Source of the DNA: a virus
IMG/VR virus record: IMGVR_UViG_3300011013_000072
Span: 1 to 26,124 of that record
DNA: 26,124 bases
Strand: one strand, 5' to 3'
Shown here: positions 380-25,733 of the stretch, piece after piece
Layout: every line of letters starts with the position of its first letter
How positions within the stretch are numbered: the stretch's first letter is position 1
The notes under the pieces: model-generated
Seen by the model: the letters and a program-made list of their open reading frames with translations, nothing else
Told to the model about the DNA's origin: nothing
The model's database searches: none
Translations under genes and position numbers: made by a program

Positions 380-2098
380 TTATTCCTCCGTTATCACTGC
401 ATCAAAACCGCCAACTGTTCCGGCAAAGCCCGGCTCATATCCAGAGAACGGAGTCATTTGAAAAGACCATAGTTTAAGTTTTATTCTTCCAGTCGCATCG
501 TAGCCAATAGAACGAACCATACAAGGTACACCGGAAAAGATGACCGCTCCGATACTAATATCTACCGAGATTATCTGACCAAGTTCCAATAGTAAAGATC
601 TAGGTGTAACACTAACCTCGATGATCTCAAAATATGAAGACGCAAGCCTTAGTATTTCTATCGACTGATTCTTCGCGTCAGATTCCAGGTAAAGGTTAGG
701 AAAAACTATTCCTTTACCAATCAGTTTACCTTCGGCCAAGGTTATCGCTCCTGAATTTCTTAGAAACGGAGTCGTGTTGTTATTGTCATTGATGTCAGGA
801 AGGAAGTTAAAGAAACCTCTCGTCCTGTTGAAGTTATTCCGGGTATCTAACCTAGGCTTAAACGTGCCTTTTTCTACATCCCAATTTCTGACAACGAACG
901 AAGGTACAGGGACAAGGTCGTCGAAGTGATAACTTGAAATACTTAACTTCAAATCTCGATTGACAAATGCTTCAAGTCTGACTTGTTCTAATAAAGACAG
1001 TGCAAATGTTATCGCTTGAGCTTCGTCGTCTCTATATATCCTGCTCTTAATCAAAGATATGGCGGACTCGGCAGGCGTGGCCTTGTCCCTAAATGTCGCC
1101 CAGGTCGCGTCGAAATCTCCCGAGACGGCATCGGTATAAGTTAAGAGAATATCTCTCGCTTGCCAGACAATATTGTCATTGTAAATTCCTCCCGATCCTA
1201 AATCTTTACCGACTACACGGACGAAAAACTTATCTCCTTTTTTAAAATCAAAAGCAGATCCGTCAATTAAGGTCGTACCTCCGTTTCCTGACGCCCTAAT
1301 CTCGAACCGATTCTTATTCGCGTCGATATTGACTATATCTGCCGTGTCGATTGTAAAGAAATCACTGGATCTCTTTAATACTACGGTTGTCGCGTCGAAA
1401 GAAAGATTTGTTGTAGCCGATATTAGGAGATCAAGGTTAGTCGATCCCGAGATTACCGTCGCATCTTTTCCATTTAGCGCAAGTGTTGGGATCGACGAGC
1501 CTGATTCTACATTTAAGGCCGTTGTCCAATCTCCATAGATGATTGGTTTAAGTTTGCCTATCAGGTTGTCTTCCAAATTTGGAAAAGAAGATATCGTTAA
1601 CGACTCGGTTGGGAATTCTACGTCCAGTTTTTCGAAGTCATCCCTCGCGACGATCTTGATCGAGAAGGTTGACCTTTGAGTTCCGCCTATTTCTGTAATC
1701 TTACCCTTAAAAACCGAAGTATAAGTAGAAGCGATATCGCGCAGTCCGATTTTTATCTCAACACTTTTTTGAAGCCAACCGCCAAAATCGACTCCACCTT
1801 GAAGTAGGGAGTTAAAACGAGAATCGGCATTGCTCACCTCTAATGTTATCGTAGAAAATTCAAGTTCCGGGGACAACCAATCGCCAATCGTCCTATTCAC
1901 GCTCGGAAACTTTAACAAAGCCTCATAAAAAATATCGCCGACGTATTTATTTCTGTCACTGGCGTAGATGAATCCGGTTGGAGTTTGAATCTCAGCAACC
2001 ATCTCCAACTCATTGACGAGATTGTCTTGCGAGTCGTCAAGGAGATCTTGATCCAAGACGGTTGCCGAAAGATAAGGTTTTCGATCTGAATTACTCAC
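380..2098 (-). CDS. Putative tail hub / baseplate-like minor tail protein, 572 aa
   Basis: A 572-residue, mostly beta-rich protein with no signal peptide or membrane segment. It is the second gene after the tape measure, where siphophages usually encode the hub or tail-associated protein that closes the tube and carries receptor-binding parts. An N-terminal stretch with GWLQKSVEIKIGL followed by FKGKITEI resembles the beta-barrel entry of gp27-like hub proteins, but I cannot confirm homology by eye. The start ATG at 2098 overlaps the upstream stop by 4 bp (ATGA), implying translational coupling. Function is inferred from synteny; being a tail protein is much more certain than the exact role. 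Confidence 0.7.
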   Translation of the reverse strand: MSNSDRKPYLSATVLDQDLLDDSQDNLVNELEMVAEIQTPTGFIYASDRNKYVGDIFYEALLKFPSVNRTIGDWLSPELEFSTITLEVSNADSRFNSLLQGGVDFGGWLQKSVEIKIGLRDIASTYTSVFKGKITEIGGTQRSTFSIKIVARDDFEKLDVEFPTESLTISSFPNLEDNLIGKLKPIIYGDWTTALNVESGSSIPTLALNGKDATVISGSTNLDLLISATTNLSFDATTVVLKRSSDFFTIDTADIVNIDANKNRFEIRASGNGGTTLIDGSAFDFKKGDKFFVRVVGKDLGSGGIYNDNIVWQARDILLTYTDAVSGDFDATWATFRDKATPAESAISLIKSRIYRDDEAQAITFALSLLEQVRLEAFVNRDLKLSISSYHFDDLVPVPSFVVRNWDVEKGTFKPRLDTRNNFNRTRGFFNFLPDINDNNNTTPFLRNSGAITLAEGKLIGKGIVFPNLYLESDAKNQSIEILRLASSYFEIIEVSVTPRSLLLELGQIISVDISIGAVIFSGVPCMVRSIGYDATGRIKLKLWSFQMTPFSGYEPGFAGTVGGFDAVITEE

Positions 2099-3141
2099 CT
2101 TGCTTCATCCACATTAATAGAAAAATCCACGAAATCTAAATTCTCGCCCTTAACATTATGAGTCTCCCTCGGTATCTCCGTTAGTTTCCCGAAGATAGAA
2201 AACCGTTTTGGAAACTGAGGGGTAGGAACCCAAAAACACTTTAAAGTTGTCCTGGCAGTGTTGAAGATATCTATCATATTGGCGTAGTTTGCTTTTTTAA
2301 AATCGAGGTTTTTAAAATTCAACTTCAATTTCTTCTTTATTCCTCGATCGTTCTGAACATTTGTGAAAGCTTCCGTACTAATGCCGTCTGTGAAATTGAC
2401 CAACTGTCTTTCGACTTTATCGACAAAGCATTCACCTTGGAAGATGGTAGCCGAACCGAAGACAATCGTACCAATCGAGATATGGTCGGCCACATTACTT
2501 GCATCTGAAATCTCAAACCGCCAGTACCTAAAAGCAGTTAAAGGTATGGTTTGAGAAATAAAAATAATCTCCCCGTTTCCATCAACCTCTAGGAACTCGT
2601 CGAATCCTATCGTCGCAAAAGTTGAACTTGTCGAACCGATTAGTCTAACTGTTGCCGACGAAGACAAGTTGGTGTTTAGAACTCCAACAGTGTCGTTAAA
2701 AATTCCTTGAGTTAACTCAGTATCGCAGTCGAGGGTTATCGAGGTCTTAACTCCCGTTGCACTTCGCCATATTTGTTCGACAACGTCTGTGTTTAAGTTG
2801 AACTCCGAGAAGTCATTAGTAGACGACGGCTCGGTCGAACTTGCCAACCAATTCTGTCCGGTGGCAATAGGATTTCCCCAAGAATTGTTACCTGCCCCTG
2901 TAACCGCACCTCGACTTGGAAACTCGCAAAGGATTCTAAGGTTGTTTGTGTTGTATAAAATTACCCTCGCCTGCCAACCGAAAGGAGAAGGAGAAACAAA
3001 CTGTGACTGCCAGCCGATGGCGTCAAAGTTACGATTGAACTTCCCTTGCCATCCCATAAAGCCAAGACGGCCGCCAACTCCGTAGTTAGCCTGCCCGTAT
3101 GCCGTTCCACCATATCCAGTCGTTTGATAGTTGATTGTCAT
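2095..3141 (-). CDS. Putative distal tail protein-like minor tail protein, 348 aa
   Basis: This 348-residue protein follows the tape measure directly (stop and start share bases as TAATG at 3141). The N-terminus is rich in Tyr, Gly and Trp (TGYGGTAYGQANYGVGGRLG), followed by repeated GWQ motifs. The middle looks like a beta-sandwich, and the C-terminus (LNFKNLDFKKANYANMIDIF onward) resembles the part of tail proteins that meets the hub or tube. In long-tailed phages the gene after the tape measure typically encodes the distal tail (Dit-like) protein, so that is the best guess. It is coupled to the next gene by a 4-bp overlap. No enzymatic motif was seen. Confidence 0.68.
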   Translation of the reverse strand: MTINYQTTGYGGTAYGQANYGVGGRLGFMGWQGKFNRNFDAIGWQSQFVSPSPFGWQARVILYNTNNLRILCEFPSRGAVTGAGNNSWGNPIATGQNWLASSTEPSSTNDFSEFNLNTDVVEQIWRSATGVKTSITLDCDTELTQGIFNDTVGVLNTNLSSSATVRLIGSTSSTFATIGFDEFLEVDGNGEIIFISQTIPLTAFRYWRFEISDASNVADHISIGTIVFGSATIFQGECFVDKVERQLVNFTDGISTEAFTNVQNDRGIKKKLKLNFKNLDFKKANYANMIDIFNTARTTLKCFWVPTPQFPKRFSIFGKLTEIPRETHNVKGENLDFVDFSINVDEAR

Positions 3142-6100
3142 TATGCTCTCAATCCTTGTTTGGACATGATGAACTCACCGTCTAAACTTCTTCTTTTTAA
3201 TTCTTCGAAGATAAAAGAAGCGATTGACTCCTTGTCATCTGATCCTTCGATCCGAATAGCTCCTTCGGAGATATTCAAGTTGGAAGTGTTCGAATCTCCC
3301 CCAGTTTGTGGCAAACTTCCGGTTCTATTCAAGGCATCAACTCCAGATGATCCGATTGAAGCCACCGCTCCTTGATTCAAAACCGCCTCGCCAACCTGTG
3401 CCCTGATCAAACGGTTGTCGATTGTACCTCCCGTCTGGTATCCGGGGATTGAGGCCATAAGGCCGCCAATGTCTGCGCTATTTCTTGGAGTAATCATTCC
3501 GCCTTGCGCGAATCCAAACAACTTAGCGACTTTTTTGCCGCCTTTTGCAATCGCACCTCCGGCTTTTTTCGCGCCTCCTGTGACTTTTCCGACGGCTCCA
3601 ACCAACTTCTCTATTAGTTTCTTCAAAGGTTTGATTACTTTGTTCATTGCGCTTTTGATCTTATTAAAAACTTTCTTTACAGGATTGAATGCCTTAGTGA
3701 CTGTGTTTTTCAACCCTCTAAAAATTGACTTAATTGGCTTAACTGCCTTTGAAAAGATGCCTTTTAATCCGCTAAAGAAAACTCTCACCGGCCTAAATCC
3801 TCTTGAGATCGTCGAACCAATTTTTCCGAAGAAATTGATGACCCCTTGGAACGCGCCTTTGATATTTCCTTTAAAAATATTCCTGAAGAAGTCAATTATT
3901 GTCTTAAAAGCGTTCTTAACCAAATTCCCTATCGGCTTAAAGACGTCATTCCAAATGGAAGTGAACACGGCTTTAATGTTTTTCCCTATAGCTGCGAAGA
4001 CTTCTTTGATGGATTCCCATGTCGCTTCGAGAGCCGTCACAATCTCATCAAAAATACCTTTAATCGCCTCCCAGACGGCATCAAAGGCGACGATAATTAC
4101 ATCAAATATTACCTTGATCGCCTCCCAAACGGTTTCAAAAGCCAAGATGACCGCATCGAAGATAACCTTTATCACCTCCCAAACGGTTTCAAAGGCGATA
4201 ACGATAACCTCGAAGATAACTTTTATCACTTCCCATGTTGCCTCCAAGGAGTCAATTATTGGCGTGAAGATGGTATCCCAAACCCATTGGAAAAGAACGG
4301 TGAAGGCATCAATTATAGGTGAGAATATAGTGTCCCAAACCCACTCAAAGACCACAGTGAAGGCGTCAATTATAGGAGAGAAAATCGTGTCCCAGACCCA
4401 TTGGAACACTTCGGTAATAGCGTCAATTATAGGAGAGAAAATAGTATCCCAAACCCACTGGAAGGCGTCTTTTATGCCGTTAATGATAGGATCAAAAATC
4501 TTTTCCTTAACCCACATCCAAATGTCTTCTAGGGCTTTGATGAACTTATCCCACAAAGATCCTAACCTTTCCGAAACAGCTGCAACTGCCGTCTTGGTCT
4601 GTTCGACTATGTCTTCCGGGGACTTTGGAAGCTCTTTCGGAGCTGCATCTTCAAGTCCGACCAGGCCGAATAATTCTTGCGATACTTTCGTCGCGGCTTT
4701 ACCGGCTTTTTTAATTTGTTTGTCTAACGACTTTCCGATCTTTTTGACATCGACTGAAGCCGCAGGAAGTTTGACGCCTTTAAATAGAGAATCAAAAGCC
4801 TTCTTTAACCCTTTGACAATACCGTTAACCAAGGCAAAGACAATCTTAGGAATAGCCTTTATAATGGCAGCTATAATTCGAACTATTCCACCTTTAAAAA
4901 TCAACTCATCGACTATTCCTATTGCAATATCCGCAGAGCCCGCGACGAGTCCCGTTATCAACGCCTCAATTATTTTAGGTAAAGCCGAAAGTATTCCTTC
5001 GATGATAGCCGGGATGGCAGCTATCACCTTAGTTATGATAGCAGGTATCGACTCGGCTAATTTCTGAATAATCATCGGAAGGGCGTCAAGGATCGAATTT
5101 ATTATTTCCGGCAAGGCGTCTAATATCGTCCCAATTATTTCGGGAAGTTTTTCTATCAGACCCGCCAAAGCAAGCATTAACCCGTCAATTATCTGAGGGA
5201 TGGCATCGACTATCGACCCTATGATCTGAGGCAGTTGATCCAAGAGGGCGAAGAACGCTTGTAGTAGTGCGTCTATTATCTGAGGTAGTTTGTCGATTAT
5301 GGTTTGAATAATCTCCGGCAGTTTGTCGATTAGTTTTAAAAAAGCATTTAAGAACTTATCAATGAAAACATCCAAGTTATCAGCCAAAGAAAGAAATGCT
5401 TGTAATAAATTCTCAGGAAGCTCAGTCATGGTCTTCACCGATCCGGCCAGGCCGTTGATAAAATCAGGACTGAATATCTTTCCTGCGATCGACGCGACGA
5501 CTTCAATCGAAGTTCCAATGACATCGGCTACCGCTCGGCCCATTAACTTACCAATCGACAAAAGGTCGCCTTTTGTGGCACCTGCCAACTCGGAACCGAA
5601 TTCTGAAACTCCCGCACTCAACTCACCGAAAAATGCTGCCGTCTTTGGCGATGCACCTTCGATTAAGGCCGCAACTCCCTGGCCTGATTTCTTTAAAATC
5701 TCTCCACTTCGAACAAACGTTTCTTGTATTGCCTTTCCGTCAAAAGCCTTAGCTGCCGCCTTAAATATCCCTCCAATATCTCCGTCTTTGATCTGTGCAA
5801 CTATGTCGCCTCCGACGGCCGACAGCTCTTGTGCTACCGAAGAAAACAAGGCTGGATCAACTATATTGGCGACCGACTCCGCGATAAGTTTGAAGGTAAT
5901 AGGAGTCGCGGCTTCGACGGCCATATCTTTTTGAATCTCTAACTGCTTGCGAAGGAAATTTAAATTCTCTGCGGCTTGCCTTCCCGAAATGGAAGATAAA
6001 TCTAATTCTCTCTTCTTGCTTTCAATCGCCATGGCTTGAAGGGAAAAAGCCAACTGCAATTGTTTGACTTTATCGCCTTCAAGTTCGGCAATGGCGAGTA

Positions 6101-10633: not shown

Positions 10634-11095
10634 TTAGCATTCACTTGAAAAAGGTTCCTCGAACAACGCCTGATAGTCGAGCCTTGCCATAAAATATGGG
10701 CTTAAAATATGAAGATCAGTTAGCCCTCGAATGTATTTTATATGTTTGAAGCGTCCTTGGGAAGGAACCAAACTCCCTAAACCCAAAGTAGGATCTTCTC
10801 CAAGCTTTCTTTTTATCTCAAGTTTCCGATCGAAAAGCAAACCTTGGTCTGCTACGTCGTCTTGTAAGGGCCTTAAAATCAACTCAATTGTTAATGTCCA
10901 CTCGTTCTCGGTTCGACCTTGCACGGTCCTTGCCGTCTCCCCAACGTCGTAGATTTGAATTGCTGGGATCTCGTGATCCTTGAAATCACTGGAGTAAAGG
11001 CGTATCCGTTCAAACTCAACAAGAGACGGCCAGGTCAATTCTTCGAGCTTTGTTTTGATGTTTTGTAAAACCAGTTTTTGAACTGAATCAACCAA
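10634..11095 (-). CDS. Putative tail terminator / tail completion protein, 153 aa
   Basis: Start TTG at 11095 (GAGAGG 6 nt upstream) overlaps the end of the gp10-like gene by 8 bp. The 153-residue protein has an N-terminal helix (LVLQNIKTKLEELTW) and then alternating beta-strands with a conserved-looking PAIQIYDVGE and EWTLTIELILRP pattern, as in gpU-like or gp17-like tail completion proteins that cap the tail and bind the head connector. Placement directly before the tail tube gene supports this. No catalytic motif. Confidence 0.72.
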   Translation of the reverse strand: MVDSVQKLVLQNIKTKLEELTWPSLVEFERIRLYSSDFKDHEIPAIQIYDVGETARTVQGRTENEWTLTIELILRPLQDDVADQGLLFDRKLEIKRKLGEDPTLGLGSLVPSQGRFKHIKYIRGLTDLHILSPYFMARLDYQALFEEPFSSEC

Positions 11096-11591
11096 GATTA
11101 GCCTCTCTTAGGATGTCAATTATTTTCCTTTTGTGTTTTGTAAAAGCCGGGCGGAGGTAAGGTCGGGCCTTGATATTCATCTCCCTTTTGTGGGCTCTTA
11201 CCCTGACAACCAAAGGAGCTATCTGTTGGCCAAATGCCTGGGTGATTGTCCTATCATGGTCTGGGATCTCTACCTTGTCGGTCGATCCGAACTCGTGGAC
11301 CCTTGCATAGGGAACCGCGAAGGAACCGACGATGACCCTGATATCATTACCTACCGCCTCGATCTCGTGTTTGATGGAATTTAAAAGTCGCCCGGTATCT
11401 ATCAAACGTCGGGATCGGATATTGAGTTTCGCTTGTGCTTCGATCAAAAGGGCGATCCGCAACATCGCCTCCCTCCGCCGTGGCTCACGGGCTTGAAAGG
11501 ATTGTATGAACCTATCGGCCCTCGCGATCATAACTGATTCGATCTTCGCAGGGGAAGGGACTGTGAACTTCTTTCCCTTCTTCTTAGCCAT
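11088..11591 (-). CDS. HK97 gp10-like head-tail joining / tail component, 167 aa
   Basis: The sequence contains VPYARVHEFGS, the signature of the HK97 gp10 family (Y-A-x-x-x-E-F-G), preceded by a helix-rich region with DTGRLLNSI, also typical. This family acts at the neck joining head and tail. An upstream GTG at 11600 is possible, but ATG 11591 is preferred because AGGTG lies 7 nt before it. It overlaps the connector gene by 8 bp. The N-terminus is Lys-rich, and a C-terminal RPYLRPAF motif is another family hallmark. Confidence 0.87.
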   Translation of the reverse strand: MAKKKGKKFTVPSPAKIESVMIARADRFIQSFQAREPRRREAMLRIALLIEAQAKLNIRSRRLIDTGRLLNSIKHEIEAVGNDIRVIVGSFAVPYARVHEFGSTDKVEIPDHDRTITQAFGQQIAPLVVRVRAHKREMNIKARPYLRPAFTKHKRKIIDILREANLG

Positions 11592-12246
11592 TTCGAACAC
11601 CTACTTCTGAGTTCGCAAACTCTTCTCGAATATACGGCTCCAAAAGGAGTTGGATGTGTTGAGGCAATCGCTGCTCAAAACTTGTGCTCTCGCCGGTCTT
11701 ACCTCTGTTCAATATTCCTACACGCTCTGAACTCGTCGAATGATAGAACCACGACACCAGCTCCAGACACGCATACTCCAAATCTGACGGCAGGGTATTC
11801 GTTCCGGTACCATCAATGTCGGATTGAGTAACAATGCCGTAGCCGTGATCATACGTGATCTTGACGTTACGATATCCCTTCGAGAAGATACCACGGTATC
11901 GAAGGATGCTCGTTTGGCGGTCAGACACGTCGTACTCGTCGATCGGGACAACCGTCTCGGAGCCGAAAACAGATTCGCCATCGAGAAAAATCTCCGGCTT
12001 TGATCCGACGGCAGGGCCGCCGGTAATTGGCCACTCGTAGGTTTGCATACGATTGTTGGCTCGGCCATCGTGGAATTCTGTAACCGTCCTATCTGTCAAC
12101 TTCCTCTTCGTCAATCGCTCAATCATACCACTGGCGACATTTATCAGCATGTCAATCCGAGAGTCATATTTAGTCGTCGCCAAAGGAATCTGAACATGAT
12201 CTTTCGCATTGTTTCTATATGTGAGAGCGTTTGAGTTGACAGACAT
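11584..12246 (-). CDS. Head-tail connector protein, gp6-like, 220 aa
   Basis: A 220-residue protein whose start overlaps the upstream stop (TAATG). The N-terminal helix-rich part (DMLINVASGMIERLTKRKL) and the later YDHGYG...LPSDLEYACLELVSW region match the layout of HK97 gp6-type connector (head completion) proteins, in which helices line the neck ring below the portal. Its place just upstream of the gp10-like gene agrees. No enzymatic residues. Confidence 0.85.
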   Translation of the reverse strand: MSVNSNALTYRNNAKDHVQIPLATTKYDSRIDMLINVASGMIERLTKRKLTDRTVTEFHDGRANNRMQTYEWPITGGPAVGSKPEIFLDGESVFGSETVVPIDEYDVSDRQTSILRYRGIFSKGYRNVKITYDHGYGIVTQSDIDGTGTNTLPSDLEYACLELVSWFYHSTSSERVGILNRGKTGESTSFEQRLPQHIQLLLEPYIREEFANSEVGVRNG

Positions 12247-12561: not shown

Positions 12562-12855
12562 CTATTTCGACCAATCCCACAACTCTTTCGCGCCTTCGTC
12601 GTCTTCGATTGCATTGAAACAATGTTTCGGATCTTTAAACAGTCTATTGATCGCAGGCTCTTGGACATGGACGTGCCACCACTTCCCTGCGCGTGAAGCC
12701 TTCCCGGTCCTTCCCGACAAGGATTCGTCTGGATCTCCGCCGAGGACGGCCGATCCAAATTGAGATAATGAGACGCCAAGGTTGTAGACGTATTGTAATA
12801 AAATTGTAGCTTCGCCTTTATTGCACTGATCAATCCAGCCCATCCAGTTCCCCAT
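12562..12855 (-). CDS. Small conserved phage protein with DESLSGRTGK and DPKHC motifs, 97 aa
   Basis: ATG at 12855 is preferred (GGGGAAA upstream, no overlap); a TTG at 12876 would add 7 residues and overlap the neighbouring gene. The pattern LGGDPDESLSGRTGK followed by LFKDPKHC and a closing acidic helix resembles small proteins I recall from other tailed phages as hypothetical, often in late operons. The function is unknown; the Trp/His-rich centre (KWWHVHVQ) has no known meaning. Family resemblance is from memory and was not searched. Confidence 0.7.
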   Translation of the reverse strand: MGNWMGWIDQCNKGEATILLQYVYNLGVSLSQFGSAVLGGDPDESLSGRTGKASRAGKWWHVHVQEPAINRLFKDPKHCFNAIEDDEGAKELWDWSK

Positions 12856-12860
12856 TGTAT

Positions 12861-13406
12861 TTAAGGTTTTCCCCAATAAATATTCACTCGAAAAGTATCC
12901 ACAACGGAACTAGCTTTGGTTGCGATGAATCTAAAATATAACCCCGATTTTATTTCCTCCGAACCGCCTATAGATTCTACAAGCAAAGGATTTGTAGTCG
13001 GCATGTACCATCCCCTCTTTGCAGGCGCTATAACTACAGAAGGGTTCTCGGAAAAAGAACCGACCTTCGGATAGTCTGGGTAATCTATTGCCGCCTGAGC
13101 CTCGGCTTGTGCTTGTGTCAATCCAGCACTTACATAAGCAGCGACAATTATCTGATCAATATCCACGACATCAACTGAGTCAAACATATCACCAGGCAAA
13201 GGATTGTCGAACCATCCCGAACCACCTTCGACAATTCTTGATTCTACCAAAGGTGTTCCCGGTATCTTAAGATCAAGTTGAATGGCCCCACTGGCATCTG
13301 AAACCTGTGAGCCACACATCATTTGTAGCTTTGATCGTGAAGGAATACTGATAGCTAAAACGATAGAAGACGACAGTAAGAAATAAAATATAACAAACCT
13401 ACTCAT
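12861..13406 (-). CDS. Signal-peptide-bearing protein of unknown function, 181 aa
   Basis: Start and the previous stop share TAATG at 13406, so the two genes are probably translated together. The N-terminus MSRFVIFYFLLSSSIVLAIS is a typical Sec signal or membrane anchor (basic start, about 16 hydrophobic residues). After it the protein is mixed alpha/beta with a Gly/Pro-rich GSGWFDNPLPGDMF segment, an Ala/Gln-rich helix and a beta-rich C-terminus (GLYFRFIATKA...FRVNIYWGKP). A second possible start at Met 29/30 would remove the signal. Its C-terminal part resembles a virion beta-sandwich. The role is unknown. Confidence 0.7.
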   Translation of the reverse strand: MSRFVIFYFLLSSSIVLAISIPSRSKLQMMCGSQVSDASGAIQLDLKIPGTPLVESRIVEGGSGWFDNPLPGDMFDSVDVVDIDQIIVAAYVSAGLTQAQAEAQAAIDYPDYPKVGSFSENPSVVIAPAKRGWYMPTTNPLLVESIGGSEEIKSGLYFRFIATKASSVVDTFRVNIYWGKP

Positions 13407-14602
13407 TAAGTTTCTTCCTCAAATCCAAATGTTAAACATTCAAGATTAGAAATACCTGAAGTTATGTTGTCTTGAACTATAATAGTCACGTTGTCGGAAG
13501 TGTTCGGTTCCAAAGGTATTGGCTGCGCCGGTCTAAAATCTGAGATAAACTCATCACCCCCAGCTTGAATATCTAGCCGGAAATCAGAGCCGGGACTAGT
13601 TGAAAATAAGTTCTTCCAATCCTCAGTTGTCTTAATAGGAAAGAATGAAAATAATTCTCCTTGACTCTCGATGTTTATTTGAATGCCATTGGAAAGACCC
13701 GAGCCTGATTTAGATAAAAATTGACCGAATTTTATTCCGTTTCCGCCACCATAGCACCTGATATAGTTGAGTAGTCTTCTCTTGGCCGATATACCAGACG
13801 AATCCGCTAACACAATAAAATTCACCGGCGTACCCGAACCATTAACTAACATGTCGGAAGAACCACCGTCTTTAAATTTTTCTTGAAACTGATCGCCAAT
13901 ACCGCCTGGTAGGGTTGAAACAGTTCCACTAATCGCCTGTACCCCAAGGTTGTGAGGGTTGTTGGGATCGCGACCAAGGCTTGTTGGTTTTGCCCTGGAT
14001 TCTATTTTGTCAAAGGCGACAATACCAACTGCCGATCCTGTGACAGAAACTTGAAAATCTAATGTGTTTGATCTCTCATAGAATTCACCGGGTAAAGAAA
14101 ATTTGGTCGAAGAAACATGAATTATTGCCCTATCTCGAACACACGTAGCCTTTAAAAATGCAGCAATGAAGTTAGCATCCGAGTTTAGATCATTAGCCAT
14201 CAGAGAGCACAAGGCCAACTCATCACCATCTTCAGAGGCGGTAACCGTTGTAACCACACTTACCGATACAGTATCCCTGTCAGGAGTGGAAGGATCGTTA
14301 ACCGTACCGGAGATATCAACGGTCCAGGTGTCATTGAGAGCGCCAGCGTTGTCGATCGTGAAATAGGTATCGGGCAAAGGATCTTGGCCATTGGGAACAT
14401 TGACACTGGTCAATAAAGTTGTTGTCAACAGACGTTTTTTTCCTGCAATGTTTTCTACATCAGCTTTGAAAACTTCGTCGCCGCCCGTGATTTGAACAGA
14501 CATCACTGGGCTAACATCCTGGGAATTAGACCAGTCAGAAATAAATAAAAATACGATAGCAACAAAAGCCACTATCGTATGATTGAAAAATTTTGTTTTC
14601 AT
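13406..14602 (-). CDS. Signal-peptide-bearing beta-rich protein of unknown function, 398 aa
   Basis: The N-terminus (MKTKFFNHTIVAFVAIVFLF followed by ISDWSNSQD) looks like a Sec signal peptide with cleavage near residue 27-28. The mature part is beta-rich with Thr/Ser/Gly, contains a few Cys (CSLMAND, KATCVRD, IRCYGGG, LECLTFGF), and its C-terminal third (residues about 265-395, with GIQINIESQGELFSFFPIKT) resembles beta-sandwich virion proteins. The start overlaps the upstream stop (TGATG). An internal Met 34 with a weak AGGA could yield a cytoplasmic form lacking the signal. Export of a product encoded inside the capsid-connector interval is unusual. Confidence 0.72.
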   Translation of the reverse strand: MKTKFFNHTIVAFVAIVFLFISDWSNSQDVSPVMSVQITGGDEVFKADVENIAGKKRLLTTTLLTSVNVPNGQDPLPDTYFTIDNAGALNDTWTVDISGTVNDPSTPDRDTVSVSVVTTVTASEDGDELALCSLMANDLNSDANFIAAFLKATCVRDRAIIHVSSTKFSLPGEFYERSNTLDFQVSVTGSAVGIVAFDKIESRAKPTSLGRDPNNPHNLGVQAISGTVSTLPGGIGDQFQEKFKDGGSSDMLVNGSGTPVNFIVLADSSGISAKRRLLNYIRCYGGGNGIKFGQFLSKSGSGLSNGIQINIESQGELFSFFPIKTTEDWKNLFSTSPGSDFRLDIQAGGDEFISDFRPAQPIPLEPNTSDNVTIIVQDNITSGISNLECLTFGFEEET

Positions 14603-14844
14603 CAGTGTTTGAAATTCCTTTTTTGTTGTTTTGCGTCTTTCATTTCTTTTTTCCTGGCAACAAACTCAGGTTGGGAAAGAAACCATTGAGGGTACTTTGC
14701 AGCGACATGCGCCTCGTTGACAAATTCCATGCTTTTTCCGTTGTCTTCTGCCTTCAGAAGAATCCGCAAAGGCTTGTCGTTATCGTCTAAGTCTTCAATT
14801 ACCATCACGCCAGACCTAAAAGATGGTCGATAAAAAGTCAACAT
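14602..14844 (-). CDS. Small basic-tailed protein of unknown function, 80 aa
   Basis: ATG at 14844 follows AAGGGG by 8 nt. The protein starts with beta-like segments (GVMVIEDLDDNDKPLRILLK) and ends in a Lys/Arg/Gln-rich tail (RKKEMKDAKQQKRNFKH). No family recognised. It lies between two beta-rich proteins and is coupled to the signal-peptide gene downstream. Confidence 0.65.
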   Translation of the reverse strand: MLTFYRPSFRSGVMVIEDLDDNDKPLRILLKAEDNGKSMEFVNEAHVAAKYPQWFLSQPEFVARKKEMKDAKQQKRNFKH

Positions 14845-16366: not shown

Positions 16367-17767
16367 TTAGATTGTAACGTCGATCCCGACTACAGTTGAA
16401 ACTTCATCGGCGTCTTGTGTTCGGCCTTTGAAGTCGATTCGACTGTAGCTTGAAAGTAACCAGCGATCGAAGTCGGCCAAATCCTGCATGACTCGAACCA
16501 CAATGGCTCGTCTCATTCCTACCCAAAACCGCTTCATGTTCACTAAGTGAACAAGACCTTTGTCGTTAGGCCCACCGTTGACATTGACGCCACTCGCTGA
16601 AACATCTTCCCGGATGAACTCAGAGATTGAAATCGGGATACCTCGGAACGCTGCAAGTGCTCCATTTAGGATTGTTGCTTGTGGTCCGAATTTCTCAACA
16701 CTTGAAACTTCGTCTAAGCTGACAGCTTGATGATAACCTGTTGGAGAGAACAAATAAGCTAAGTCCCGAACCGCAATTCCTAATCGACCTGAGGCCGTTC
16801 TCATCTCGTCGAGCTTCGCGGTAGTTACCGCAGACGAGAAGGTGACAACCGAGCCGTTTCCTGAGTTGTCAATCGCTAACTTCCTCAAACCTTTCGCTAA
16901 CTTCTGAGCATCATCGGCGGCAGTGATGTCGAAGTCCATGTGAGTTCCGGAGTCATCACCATTAAGGATGGCGGTCTCTCTCGCTCTTATTTGAGCTTCG
17001 GCAACTTCCTGTCTAGCGATTGGAAGGATTGCAACAGCACTATCCTCCGTTAGTTCTTCGGGCAGTGGGTAGAATTCACCCAGTTTTTTTGCATTAAAGA
17101 TGATCTTATCAGTTCCGAAATTCGCACCGGAAATCTGTGCACCTTCAGCCGTCAGACGCGCGGTTGTAATTCCCGTCTGCACAGGGAGCTCAAAAGGGTT
17201 GGTCTGCATAGGCATTTCAGGAAACATCATTGCAACTTTTTTCTCTAGTTCGAATTCTTCTAGGAACTGACTAGAGATTGCGGTAGGAACCCACTCGGCA
17301 CCTTCGCCTGCAACGGTTGAGCCAAAAGCTTTGACCATTGGCTCCAAGACGTCACGGCCGTATTCATGTTCGAGTATATGACTGATGGGAGAAGGATTGT
17401 AATCTTTCTCGTCGGCAGGCATCCGATCCTTAGGAGCACCGTGAAAGATTTGAGCTATGTAGCGAGCCACATCGACCGACTCTTTTAAGCTGGCGACCAT
17501 CGACTTGTAGACCGGATCGACGCCAACAAACCTCTTTTGAGCTGTGTTGGTTTTCAAAAGGTCGGCAGGTGATCGCGCACCGAAAACGGCCAAACACTTC
17601 TGTTCCATCGAGTCAGACATATGTCCGTATGCCTTGCGACGGCCGCCAGTGAAGGCATCCGTCTTGTCTTTTTCTAATTGTTTAGAAGCAGCTTCGATCT
17701 TAGAGATCCTGTCATCCATTTTCTTTTCTTTATCCGATAAGGATTTCGATGTTGCTTTCTTTCCCAC
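16367..17767 (-). CDS. Major capsid protein, HK97-fold type, 466 aa
   Basis: Forms the icosahedral shell. I chose GTG at 17767 because AGGAGG lies 7 nt upstream; the in-frame TTG at 17773 would be only 1 nt from it. About 130 N-terminal residues are charged and helical, fitting a delta/scaffold-like domain removed by the protease; the core from about residue 140 shows the HK97-type layout (FPEMPMQTNPFELPVQTG, GEFYPLPEELTEDSA, ETAILNGDDSG, FRGIPISISEFI, RFWVGMRRAIVVRV). It follows the protease gene, as expected. High expression is suggested by the strong ribosome site and the terminator right after it. Confidence 0.92.
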   Translation of the reverse strand: MGKKATSKSLSDKEKKMDDRISKIEAASKQLEKDKTDAFTGGRRKAYGHMSDSMEQKCLAVFGARSPADLLKTNTAQKRFVGVDPVYKSMVASLKESVDVARYIAQIFHGAPKDRMPADEKDYNPSPISHILEHEYGRDVLEPMVKAFGSTVAGEGAEWVPTAISSQFLEEFELEKKVAMMFPEMPMQTNPFELPVQTGITTARLTAEGAQISGANFGTDKIIFNAKKLGEFYPLPEELTEDSAVAILPIARQEVAEAQIRARETAILNGDDSGTHMDFDITAADDAQKLAKGLRKLAIDNSGNGSVVTFSSAVTTAKLDEMRTASGRLGIAVRDLAYLFSPTGYHQAVSLDEVSSVEKFGPQATILNGALAAFRGIPISISEFIREDVSASGVNVNGGPNDKGLVHLVNMKRFWVGMRRAIVVRVMQDLADFDRWLLSSYSRIDFKGRTQDADEVSTVVGIDVTI

Positions 17768-17817
17768 GGCCAAGCCTCCTAAAATTTAGAATTTACTTTT
17801 GTTAAAAAATCGGCCAA

Positions 17818-23736: not shown

Positions 23737-23955
23737 ATGAGTGTATTGGTGCAGTTCCGCTGTACCGAAGAGGACTATTGTCAGATGAAATTCTTGGCAG
23801 TTAAATTCGCTCGTGGTCGCCTCGCCGATTGGCTTCGATATGCCTCGGTCAACTCGAATCCTATGAAGGATATGTTAGGGGAAATAGATGAAAATGAGGA
23901 CGACGGCAACTCGCCGGATACAGTTTTGCGCGGGCCACAGGGTTCAGAACCATGA
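23737..23955 (+). CDS. Ribbon-helix-helix-like small DNA-binding protein, 72 aa
   Basis: Start ATG 23737 is preferred (AGGA 5 nt upstream); ATG 23713, eight codons earlier, is the alternative. The first 45 residues have the Arc/CopG/MetJ layout: a short strand (SVLVQFRCT), then a helix (EEDYCQMKFLAVKFA), a turn and a second helix (LADWLRYASV). An acidic C-terminal tail (GEIDENEDDGNSPD) follows. Such proteins bind palindromic operators as dimers, and a perfect palindrome lies about 50 nt upstream. It is the first plus-strand gene, so a control role is plausible. The 3' end overlaps the next gene by 68 bp in another frame. Confidence 0.62.
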   Translation: MSVLVQFRCTEEDYCQMKFLAVKFARGRLADWLRYASVNSNPMKDMLGEIDENEDDGNSPDTVLRGPQGSEP

Positions 23956-24352
23956 GTCAAAGTGCGCCAACCTCCATGGACATAACTACGTCGTCTTTAT
24001 TCACGCGATGGCTCCGGCCCTTGATTCTGTCGGTCGTGTGATTGACTTCAGCGTGTTGAAGGATCGCATCGGTGGCTGGATCGACAAGTGGTGGGATCAT
24101 ACTATGATCTTAGGCATCAATGACATTAAGACGATATCAGGTGTTCGAAAGTTCCAGAAGAACAAACCGCTGTTTATCCTCTCGGAAAACCCGACGGCGG
24201 AAAACATGGCCTCGTTCCTTTTAAACAATGTCTGCCCGTCGCAGCTTTTGGGGACAGGCGTCATTGTAACGAAGATAGTTTTATGGGAGACGGAGAATTG
24301 TTTTGCTTCCGTTGAACTTGATTTTGAAGAGTCTAAAAGACTCTGTAACTAA
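23888..24352 (+). CDS. queD: 6-carboxy-5,6,7,8-tetrahydropterin synthase (QueD / PTPS family), 154 aa
   Basis: QueD turns dihydroneopterin triphosphate into 6-carboxytetrahydropterin, the second step of the preQ0 (7-deazaguanine) pathway. Zinc ligands fit His17 (FCAGHRV), His30 and His32 (LHGHNY); the catalytic Cys is Cys26 (ESKCANLHGH); Asp70-His71 (WWDHTMIL) and a Glu in VLWETEN complete the active site. Motif GRVIDFSVLKD and PTAENMASFL are family hallmarks. Phages with such genes often modify their DNA with 7-deazaguanines, but no FolE, QueE, QueC or transglycosylase is in this window. ATG at 23888 has AGGGGAA upstream. A pure folate/biopterin PTPS role is less likely. Confidence 0.9.
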   Translation: MKMRTTATRRIQFCAGHRVQNHESKCANLHGHNYVVFIHAMAPALDSVGRVIDFSVLKDRIGGWIDKWWDHTMILGINDIKTISGVRKFQKNKPLFILSENPTAENMASFLLNNVCPSQLLGTGVIVTKIVLWETENCFASVELDFEESKRLCN

Positions 24353-25202: not shown

Positions 25203-25733
25203 ATGGACGTAAAAACACAGAGTCAAAAGATTAGTTTGTTGTCTGTTCTGGATTCAGGTGGATTAAAAGACAGGCTGAATAACTTGATAGTTGACAGTAT
25301 GAAAGATCCTCTGGATCGCTTCAACATGGGCTATGACTATATTCGTCTCGTTAAAGATTTAGATCACGACTATAATAACGAGCGCTACATAATAAATCTT
25401 GAATCTTCAACATATCCTGAGGATATGGGATACCTAAATATTAGAAAGCATCATCAAGACAGGGCTTGCTCTTTATCATTTTACCTGATGAAAGAGTATA
25501 GAAACCAAGGAATTTTAACTGGTCTCGTTGATTTCATCGGCACCAGATGTTTTCAACAGCTGGGATACAATCGAATTAGCGCTGAGTGTACATCGCTAAA
25601 CAAACCAGCGCTAAAAATTTACAGAGTCTTGTTAAAAGAAGAAGGTGTACGAAGAGAAGCTTCATACTACAACAGCCAGTATGTCGATGTACATGAGTTT
25701 GGAATCTTGAAAAGAGAAAGCAAGTTTAAATAA
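25203..25733 (+). CDS. GNAT-family N-acetyltransferase, 176 aa
   Basis: Acetyl-CoA-dependent acetyltransferase of the GNAT fold. Motif A-like LSFYLMKEYRNQGILTGLVD (acetyl-CoA pyrophosphate loop RNQGI) at about residues 90-110, followed by CFQQLGYNRISAECTSLNKP and ALKIYRVLLKEEGVRREASY, the usual motif B region with a Y-x-x-L helix. The N-terminal half is less clear. The acceptor (protein, small molecule or other) cannot be told. It stands behind the second leader copy in the accessory block, so a role in host takeover or counter-defence is possible but unproven. AAGGAG lies 10 nt upstream of the ATG. Confidence 0.82.
   Translation: MDVKTQSQKISLLSVLDSGGLKDRLNNLIVDSMKDPLDRFNMGYDYIRLVKDLDHDYNNERYIINLESSTYPEDMGYLNIRKHHQDRACSLSFYLMKEYRNQGILTGLVDFIGTRCFQQLGYNRISAECTSLNKPALKIYRVLLKEEGVRREASYYNSQYVDVHEFGILKRESKFK

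Follow-up and report, generated by a model that had tools for sequence, protein, structure and literature searches.

Comparison of g398 with known exported proteins

Virions of tailed phages are thought to be assembled entirely in the cytoplasm. Phages also encode exported or membrane proteins amid their virion genes, among them lambda Lom, which is an outer-membrane barrel, T5 Llp, which is a lipoprotein, and HK97 gp15, which is a small membrane protein. In Bacillus, the PBSX protein XepA is exported before lysis and is absent from the particles (PMC6834076). Bdellovibrio, the host of phage phi1422, encodes MATs, which are tail-fibre-like adhesins with signal peptides (PMC10769870). We compared these systems with two adjacent genes, g398 and g181, in the whole stretch of DNA analysed here (the window), which is a virus record of 26,124 bases. 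Like the MATs, g398 revealed a predicted signal peptide followed by a fibre- or adhesin-type body. The MATs are bacterial genes encoding trimeric fibres and share a conserved beta-rich domain of approximately 130 aa after the signal, whereas g398 belongs to the late genes of a phage, and its product showed neither an S74 domain (no Pfam match) nor a beta-helix call. A subgroup of the MATs ends in S74, as does the signal-bearing tail fibre of the phage carrying L011, one of the g398 relatives. Lom, gp15 and Llp resemble the predicted g398 product as exported or membrane proteins encoded amid virion genes; they differ from it in that its body is soluble and of virion type and in that some of its relatives lack a signal. 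The earlier note on this DNA regarded such exported proteins as unusual, which is partly true: late operons are known to encode exported proteins, as the same three examples show, whereas the export of proteins with virion-type fibre domains is undescribed in the literature searched, where searches for signal-bearing phage structural proteins gave nothing on point.

Locus and operon layout

Profile searches of the ORFs revealed a late operon on the minus strand of the window, in which the gene order was terminase, portal, protease, capsid, three further proteins, g398, g181, g104, a 92-aa protein, adaptor, neck, tail tube and tape measure. The g398 ORF (13406-14602, minus strand), which is also covered by the family alignment, encodes a predicted secretory pre-protein of 398 aa, and g181 (12861-13406, minus strand) encodes the second predicted exported product, of 181 aa. 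The stop codon of the upstream 80-aa gene g80 (14602-14844, minus strand) shares one base with the g398 ATG (TGATG at 14602), and the g398 stop codon likewise shares one base with the g181 ATG (TAATG at 13406). The two ORFs and their coupling can be read directly from the DNA, and their coordinates and chaining were as the earlier note had given them. Its placement of the pair between capsid and connector genes was also correct according to profile matches. In particular, the major capsid protein (16367-17773, minus strand), which has a T5-like HK97 fold (PF05065 Phage_capsid, E 5.6e-13; phrog_10, 9.5e-19), lies upstream, and the head-tail adaptor (11584-12246; PHROG, 4.9e-18) and Neck1 protein (11088-11600; PHROG, 2.9e-12) lie downstream. 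The next gene after g181, g104 (12562-12876, minus strand), matched phrog_3342 (1.2e-16) and belongs to a GGDPDE(T/S) family with no assigned function; relatives of the locus hold a protein with C92-like motifs in this slot instead. In Caulobacter, Acidithiobacillus and Xanthomonas phages, the g104 family lies near genes for tail fibres, pinholins or cell-wall hydrolases.

Predicted signal peptides and translation starts

Signal peptides were identified with a home-made detector based on a positive n-region, an uncharged hydrophobic core of 11-12 residues and small residues at -3 and -1; the detector is heuristic, and its thresholds were set by the analyst. It was positive for only two of the 27 window ORFs, g398 and g181, and by this heuristic both showed the layout of Sec and signal peptidase I substrates, in agreement with the hydrophobic Sec-type starts described for both products in the earlier note. 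The predicted signal peptide of g398 comprises residues 1-27 (14522-14602, minus strand), with the N-terminus MKTKFFNHTIVAFVAIVFLFISDWSNS followed by QDV and cleavage between SNS and QD; equivalent segments were found in the relatives L006, L011, L003 and L008. The predicted signal peptide of g181 comprises residues 1-18 (13353-13406, minus strand), with the N-terminus MSRFVIFYFLLSSSIVLA followed by ISI and cleavage between VLA and IS. A lipobox (Cys at +1), as expected of bacterial lipoproteins, was absent at both predicted cleavage sites. Five textbook phages (lambda, T7, HK97, Mu and P22) served as controls. The calls in these comprised the known envelope proteins Lom, RexB, the Rz spanins, the Mu endolysin and Gtr proteins, a small number of ORFs whose status is doubtful or that have no known function and, marginally, the capsid protease Mu I (1.98); none of the annotated capsid and fibre genes was called in its annotated frame. 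These controls, taken with the two calls among the 27 window ORFs, indicate that the signals in g398 and g181 are beyond chance.

The hydrophobic start might instead be a membrane anchor or a hydrophobic segment of the virion, or translation might begin at an internal Met so that the signal is never made. The latter was close to the earlier note, which had suggested two forms arising from internal Met starts or a hydrophobic part that is never translated. Internal Met codons are present at residue 34 of g398 and at residues 29 and 30 of g181. For g181, the Shine-Dalgarno sequence GAGGAAG (13414-13420, minus strand) favours the annotated ATG (-6.2 kcal/mol), whereas Met29/30 have no Shine-Dalgarno sequence (-0.1 kcal/mol), which argues against an internal start. 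The contrast is weak for g398, in which the Shine-Dalgarno sequence AAGGAA (14615-14620, minus strand) is weak and rather distant; the value was -5.6 kcal/mol at the annotated ATG and -4.1 kcal/mol at Met34. These nearly alike energies and the existence of signal-less relatives speak for an absence of export. However, the signal-less relatives of g398 carry replacement N-termini and do not begin at the internal Met, and the n/h/c layout with cleavage-like residues recurs in five family members and is accompanied by even Cys counts. We consider it quite improbable that export does not occur, and the internal-start suggestion of the earlier note is not supported by these comparisons.

The g398 family

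Relatives of g398 were reached via the capsid gene and then by alignment, which yielded a family of 12 distinct members, all from uncultivated phage contigs. No named family was matched by g398 in the Pfam, PHROGs, NCBIfam or PADLOC profiles. No close relatives of g398 or g181 were found in viral contigs, and tblastn searches of phage records with g398 and its L002 and L004 relatives gave no matches. Likewise, one pattern scan of 84,980 genomes of bacteria and archaea yielded no family member, nor did the 13 genome loci bearing a related capsid gene. The members occupy the same late interval, in which the capsid gene precedes them wherever the record covers that region, and members also occur in phages whose capsid genes show no detectable relationship. 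Among the records read through, most showed the g398 member followed by a partner of 140-220 aa and then by an ORF with C92-like motifs. We evaluated these last ORFs as C92 peptidases and rejected the assignment, as only the L005 copy passed Pfam and the others were unmatched by profile to it; H and C-[ST]-E-like motifs were visible by eye in the others. The L005 copy (5159-5767, plus strand) is a Peptidase_C92 protein (YiiX-like, 6.4e-23) encoded two genes past the g398 relative. In the 36,513-base contig IMGVR_UViG_3300049844_000214 (L041/L042), the g398 gene spans the contig ends, so this contig probably represents a whole genome that is circularly permuted.

A signal-type start was present in five of the 12 members (the window, L006, L011, L003 and L008, with the L003 score of 1.65 lying under the detector threshold) and absent in seven. 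The N-terminal sequences of the five signal-bearing members were mostly dissimilar, and the sites resembling those of signal peptidase I were kept. In a tree of the protein bodies, the window, L006, L011 and L003 formed one group (support 86/87) and L008 was placed elsewhere, which requires at least two changes of signal state and puts the signal on at least two lineages. The seven signal-less relatives share the body, the locus and the adjacent genes, and export is thus not essential to the role of the g398 family. Since these members keep the body and locus, the common function of the family is probably exerted extracellularly or at the surface of the virion.

Cysteines and putative disulphides

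The mature signal-bearing members contained 4, 8, 12, 4 (cut) and 2 Cys residues, and the signal-less members contained 1, 0, 0, 0, 1, 0 and 2. At least two mature Cys residues were therefore present in 5/5 signal-bearing members versus 1/7 signal-less members (Fisher p 0.008; Mann-Whitney p 0.003, both uncorrected for relatedness). In g398, the putative partners are Cys132 (codon 14207-14209, alignment column 255 in the window) with Cys154 (14141-14143, column 278 in the window) and Cys283 (13754-13756, column 425) with Cys389 (13436-13438, column 544), all on the minus strand. Columns 425 and 544 hold Cys exclusively in the window, L006 and L011 and switch together; the other members mostly have Phe and otherwise Met, Leu or Gly at these positions. 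The other pair is found at columns 259/276 in L006, L011 and L003 and is shifted to 255/278 in the window, by four residues on a predicted helix and two on a predicted strand, which preserves the same faces. This column pattern looks like that of conserved disulphides, as seen over only two independent contrasts between signal and no signal. There were exceptions: L008 has a signal but one Cys pair, which is located beside the cleavage site, and L018 has two Cys residues without a signal.

The presence of the signal in five diverged members on at least two lineages, with cleavage-like residues and paired Cys, gives good support to the export of g398 that the earlier note had proposed, and we regard Sec export of this protein as very probably real on these sequence grounds. 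The corresponding proposal for g181 stood in part. Its own N-terminus and ribosome-binding site suggest that g181 is probably exported as well, with thinner support, as it has a single, unpaired Cys and just two relatives, L004 and L018, neither of which has a signal. The structural model of g181 was too poor for use (pLDDT 47).

Predicted structure of g398

The AlphaFold2 model of g398 was modest (pLDDT 61, pTM 0.41), with residues 1-77 unmodelled, and comprised two components. The first is an α/β domain (residues 77-197; 14012-14374, minus strand) that resembled residues about 146-248 of T7 gp12. VIA-align placed six T7-like nozzle proteins at ranks 1-6, with Z-scores of 8.5-9.2 and an rmsd of 2.4-3.2 over 89-95 residues; in this modest-confidence model, the domain thus matches the fold of the inserted domain of approximately 100 residues in the T7 gp12 nozzle family. 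The resemblance to the 794-aa gp12 covers this one domain only; the rest of the nozzle was unmatched, and no sequence similarity was found. The second component is a beta jelly-roll (residues 227-398; 13409-13924, minus strand; VIA-align Z 6-8), a common fold, here resembling the jelly-rolls of capsid and carbohydrate-binding proteins. A Foldseek search of viral models gave nothing over TM 0.5, and a PDB sequence search with the g398 family profile gave chance-level matches only. The model suggests that the g398 body, with its nozzle-like domain and jelly-roll, is of virion type, which does not place the protein.

Like the predicted g398 product, XepA is phage-encoded, exported before lysis and has a beta-sandwich domain. 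One alternative is that g398 is an exported lysis or release accessory. The g398 jelly-roll was similar to XepA (Z 6.2), and in Caulobacter phage KSC, a member of the g104 family is encoded next to a pinholin gene. XepA, in the XepA/YomS group, forms a pentamer of C2-like domains. However, the g398 match was weak, below a meaningful level and equalled by dozens of unrelated jelly-rolls, and other records of the set carry their own holin-like genes elsewhere. To our knowledge, XepA has no signal peptide, which also counts against this explanation, and a function in lysis or release appears very improbable.

Other signal-bearing late proteins

Further signal-bearing proteins were found in the sister phages. 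The phage of L011 encodes a signal-bearing tail fibre with an S74 chaperone (Peptidase_S74, 4.4e-14), which had no sequence match among PDB chains, and the phage of L006 encodes a signal-bearing laminin-G protein (1.6e-26) and a 521-aa protein directly ahead of a holin-like gene. Two other sister phages have signal-bearing proteins of 439 aa and 584 aa, encoded where the tail genes end. The 584-aa protein comes from the phage of L015 (L052, 11350-13104, minus strand) and contains 16 Cys residues in its mature part. In L011, a gene upstream of the capsid protease gene (1609-2517, plus strand) encodes a predicted exported protein that is weakly metallophosphoesterase-like (PF00149, 0.0022).

The number of mature Cys residues was even in 12 of the 13 signal-bearing proteins, a set that includes g398, g181 and two small proteins, as opposed to 85 even and 128 odd among the other Cys-containing ORFs (Fisher p 2e-4, or 5e-4 when a truncated protein is left out). 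Because the 13 proteins came from the detector, this parity is a partly independent check of it. A signal peptide combined with an even number of Cys residues is a simple sequence test that can be applied to all phage genomes.

Similar proteins were present in Bdellovibrio phage phi1422 (NC_019525, L062). After the annotated tail fibre, gp68 (40429-42273) encodes 614 aa with 8 Cys residues, and gp75 (44298-44810) encodes 170 aa with 2 Cys residues; both have a signal-type start, and both are annotated only as hypothetical. The phi1422 genome paper (PMC3391216) nowhere uses the words "signal peptide". Like these two products of the tail-gene end, g398 is phage-encoded and combines a signal-type N-terminus with an even number of Cys residues. 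Unlike gp68 and gp75, which are encoded in the fibre region, g398 lies in the head region, and it is not homologous to them in sequence. The gp68 protein was also considered as a homologue of the 584-aa protein of G010 and rejected, as there was no detectable homology. As a cultured system, phi1422 with Bdellovibrio offers a setting for the question of whether such proteins are exported.

Proposed export and possible site of action

We consider it likely that g398 and g181 are late Sec pre-proteins and that g398 folds outside the cytoplasm with disulphides. The N-terminal signals would carry both proteins over the inner membrane, where signal peptidase I would remove them, and g398 would then fold extracytoplasmically with two disulphide bonds, 132-154 and 283-389. 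Because its mature body is of virion type, g398 may serve as an adhesin or as an accessory appendage of the surface. Where g398 folds may chiefly depend on the signal peptide, since the signal-less relatives keep the body, locus and neighbours. The sequences themselves show the family, the presence or absence of its signals and the co-occurrence of these signals with Cys pairs; from these patterns we infer that the proteins are exported, that disulphides form and where the proteins finally act. The host envelope or surface, on the one hand, and the extracellular space or the virion after lysis, on the other, are about equally probable as the final site.

The earlier note had suggested that the two proteins may act in the host envelope, in superinfection exclusion or release, and such action is conceivable. 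One explanation is that g398 and g181 are moron products acting on the envelope of the infected cell, for example by masking receptors, blocking superinfection or preventing progeny from binding debris, in a manner comparable to T5 Llp and HK97 gp15. Exported proteins of late operons are known, as in lambda Lom, which the detector called, and HK97 gp15, which is annotated as a moron product; the adjacent g398 and g181 also form a small exported cassette in the window. However, relatives with the same locus and body that lack the signal would be useless in the envelope, and the missing lipobox is a further point against this role. In addition, g398 and g181 matched no named anti-phage defence or superinfection-exclusion profile in PHROGs, Pfam, NCBIfam or PADLOC, although they may nonetheless have such a function. 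On balance, a role in the envelope is tenable, with a probability that we place somewhat short of even.

Alternatively, g398 may be a virion appendage that matures in the periplasm, where it would fold and become oxidized before attaching to finished virions at or after lysis. The virion-type domains of g398 are consistent with this explanation, as is the signal on the S74 tail fibre and laminin-G protein of sister phages, and the relatives with and without the signal differ in Cys and not in body or locus. Fibres normally attach in the cytoplasm before lysis, in contrast, and we know of no precedent for a virion appendage matured in the periplasm; this possibility is rather unlikely in our estimation. 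A broader proposal, that some tailed phages export virion surface proteins (g398, g181 and the S74 and laminin-G fibres) via Sec, form their disulphides in the periplasm and fit them to virions only at lysis, is unlikely; on that view, a signal peptide would switch the maturation route of virion appendages and would be optional for them. Should proteins of the fibre or decoration type be exported routinely, either the infected cell would carry surface adhesins made from virion parts or the virion would be partly completed outside the cytoplasm; in the second case, virions could contain disulphides that the cytoplasm cannot make.

Host leads and accessory genes

Distant relatives of the capsid protein were found in Abyssobacteria, Armatimonadota, Anaerolineae and Thermoactinomyces, and the g104 relatives point weakly to phages of Pseudomonadota. 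The small terminase of a sister phage mainly matched Vibrio phages, with phi1422 among the matches, and Bdellovibrio as a host is a lead only. The window also contains a 6-pyruvoyl tetrahydropterin synthase or QueD-type gene (23888-24352, plus strand; PF01242, 7.5e-25), which suggests a partial 7-deazaguanine pathway in this phage, and, at its right end, a GNAT acetyltransferase-like gene (25203-25733, plus strand; PF00583, 7.7e-08).
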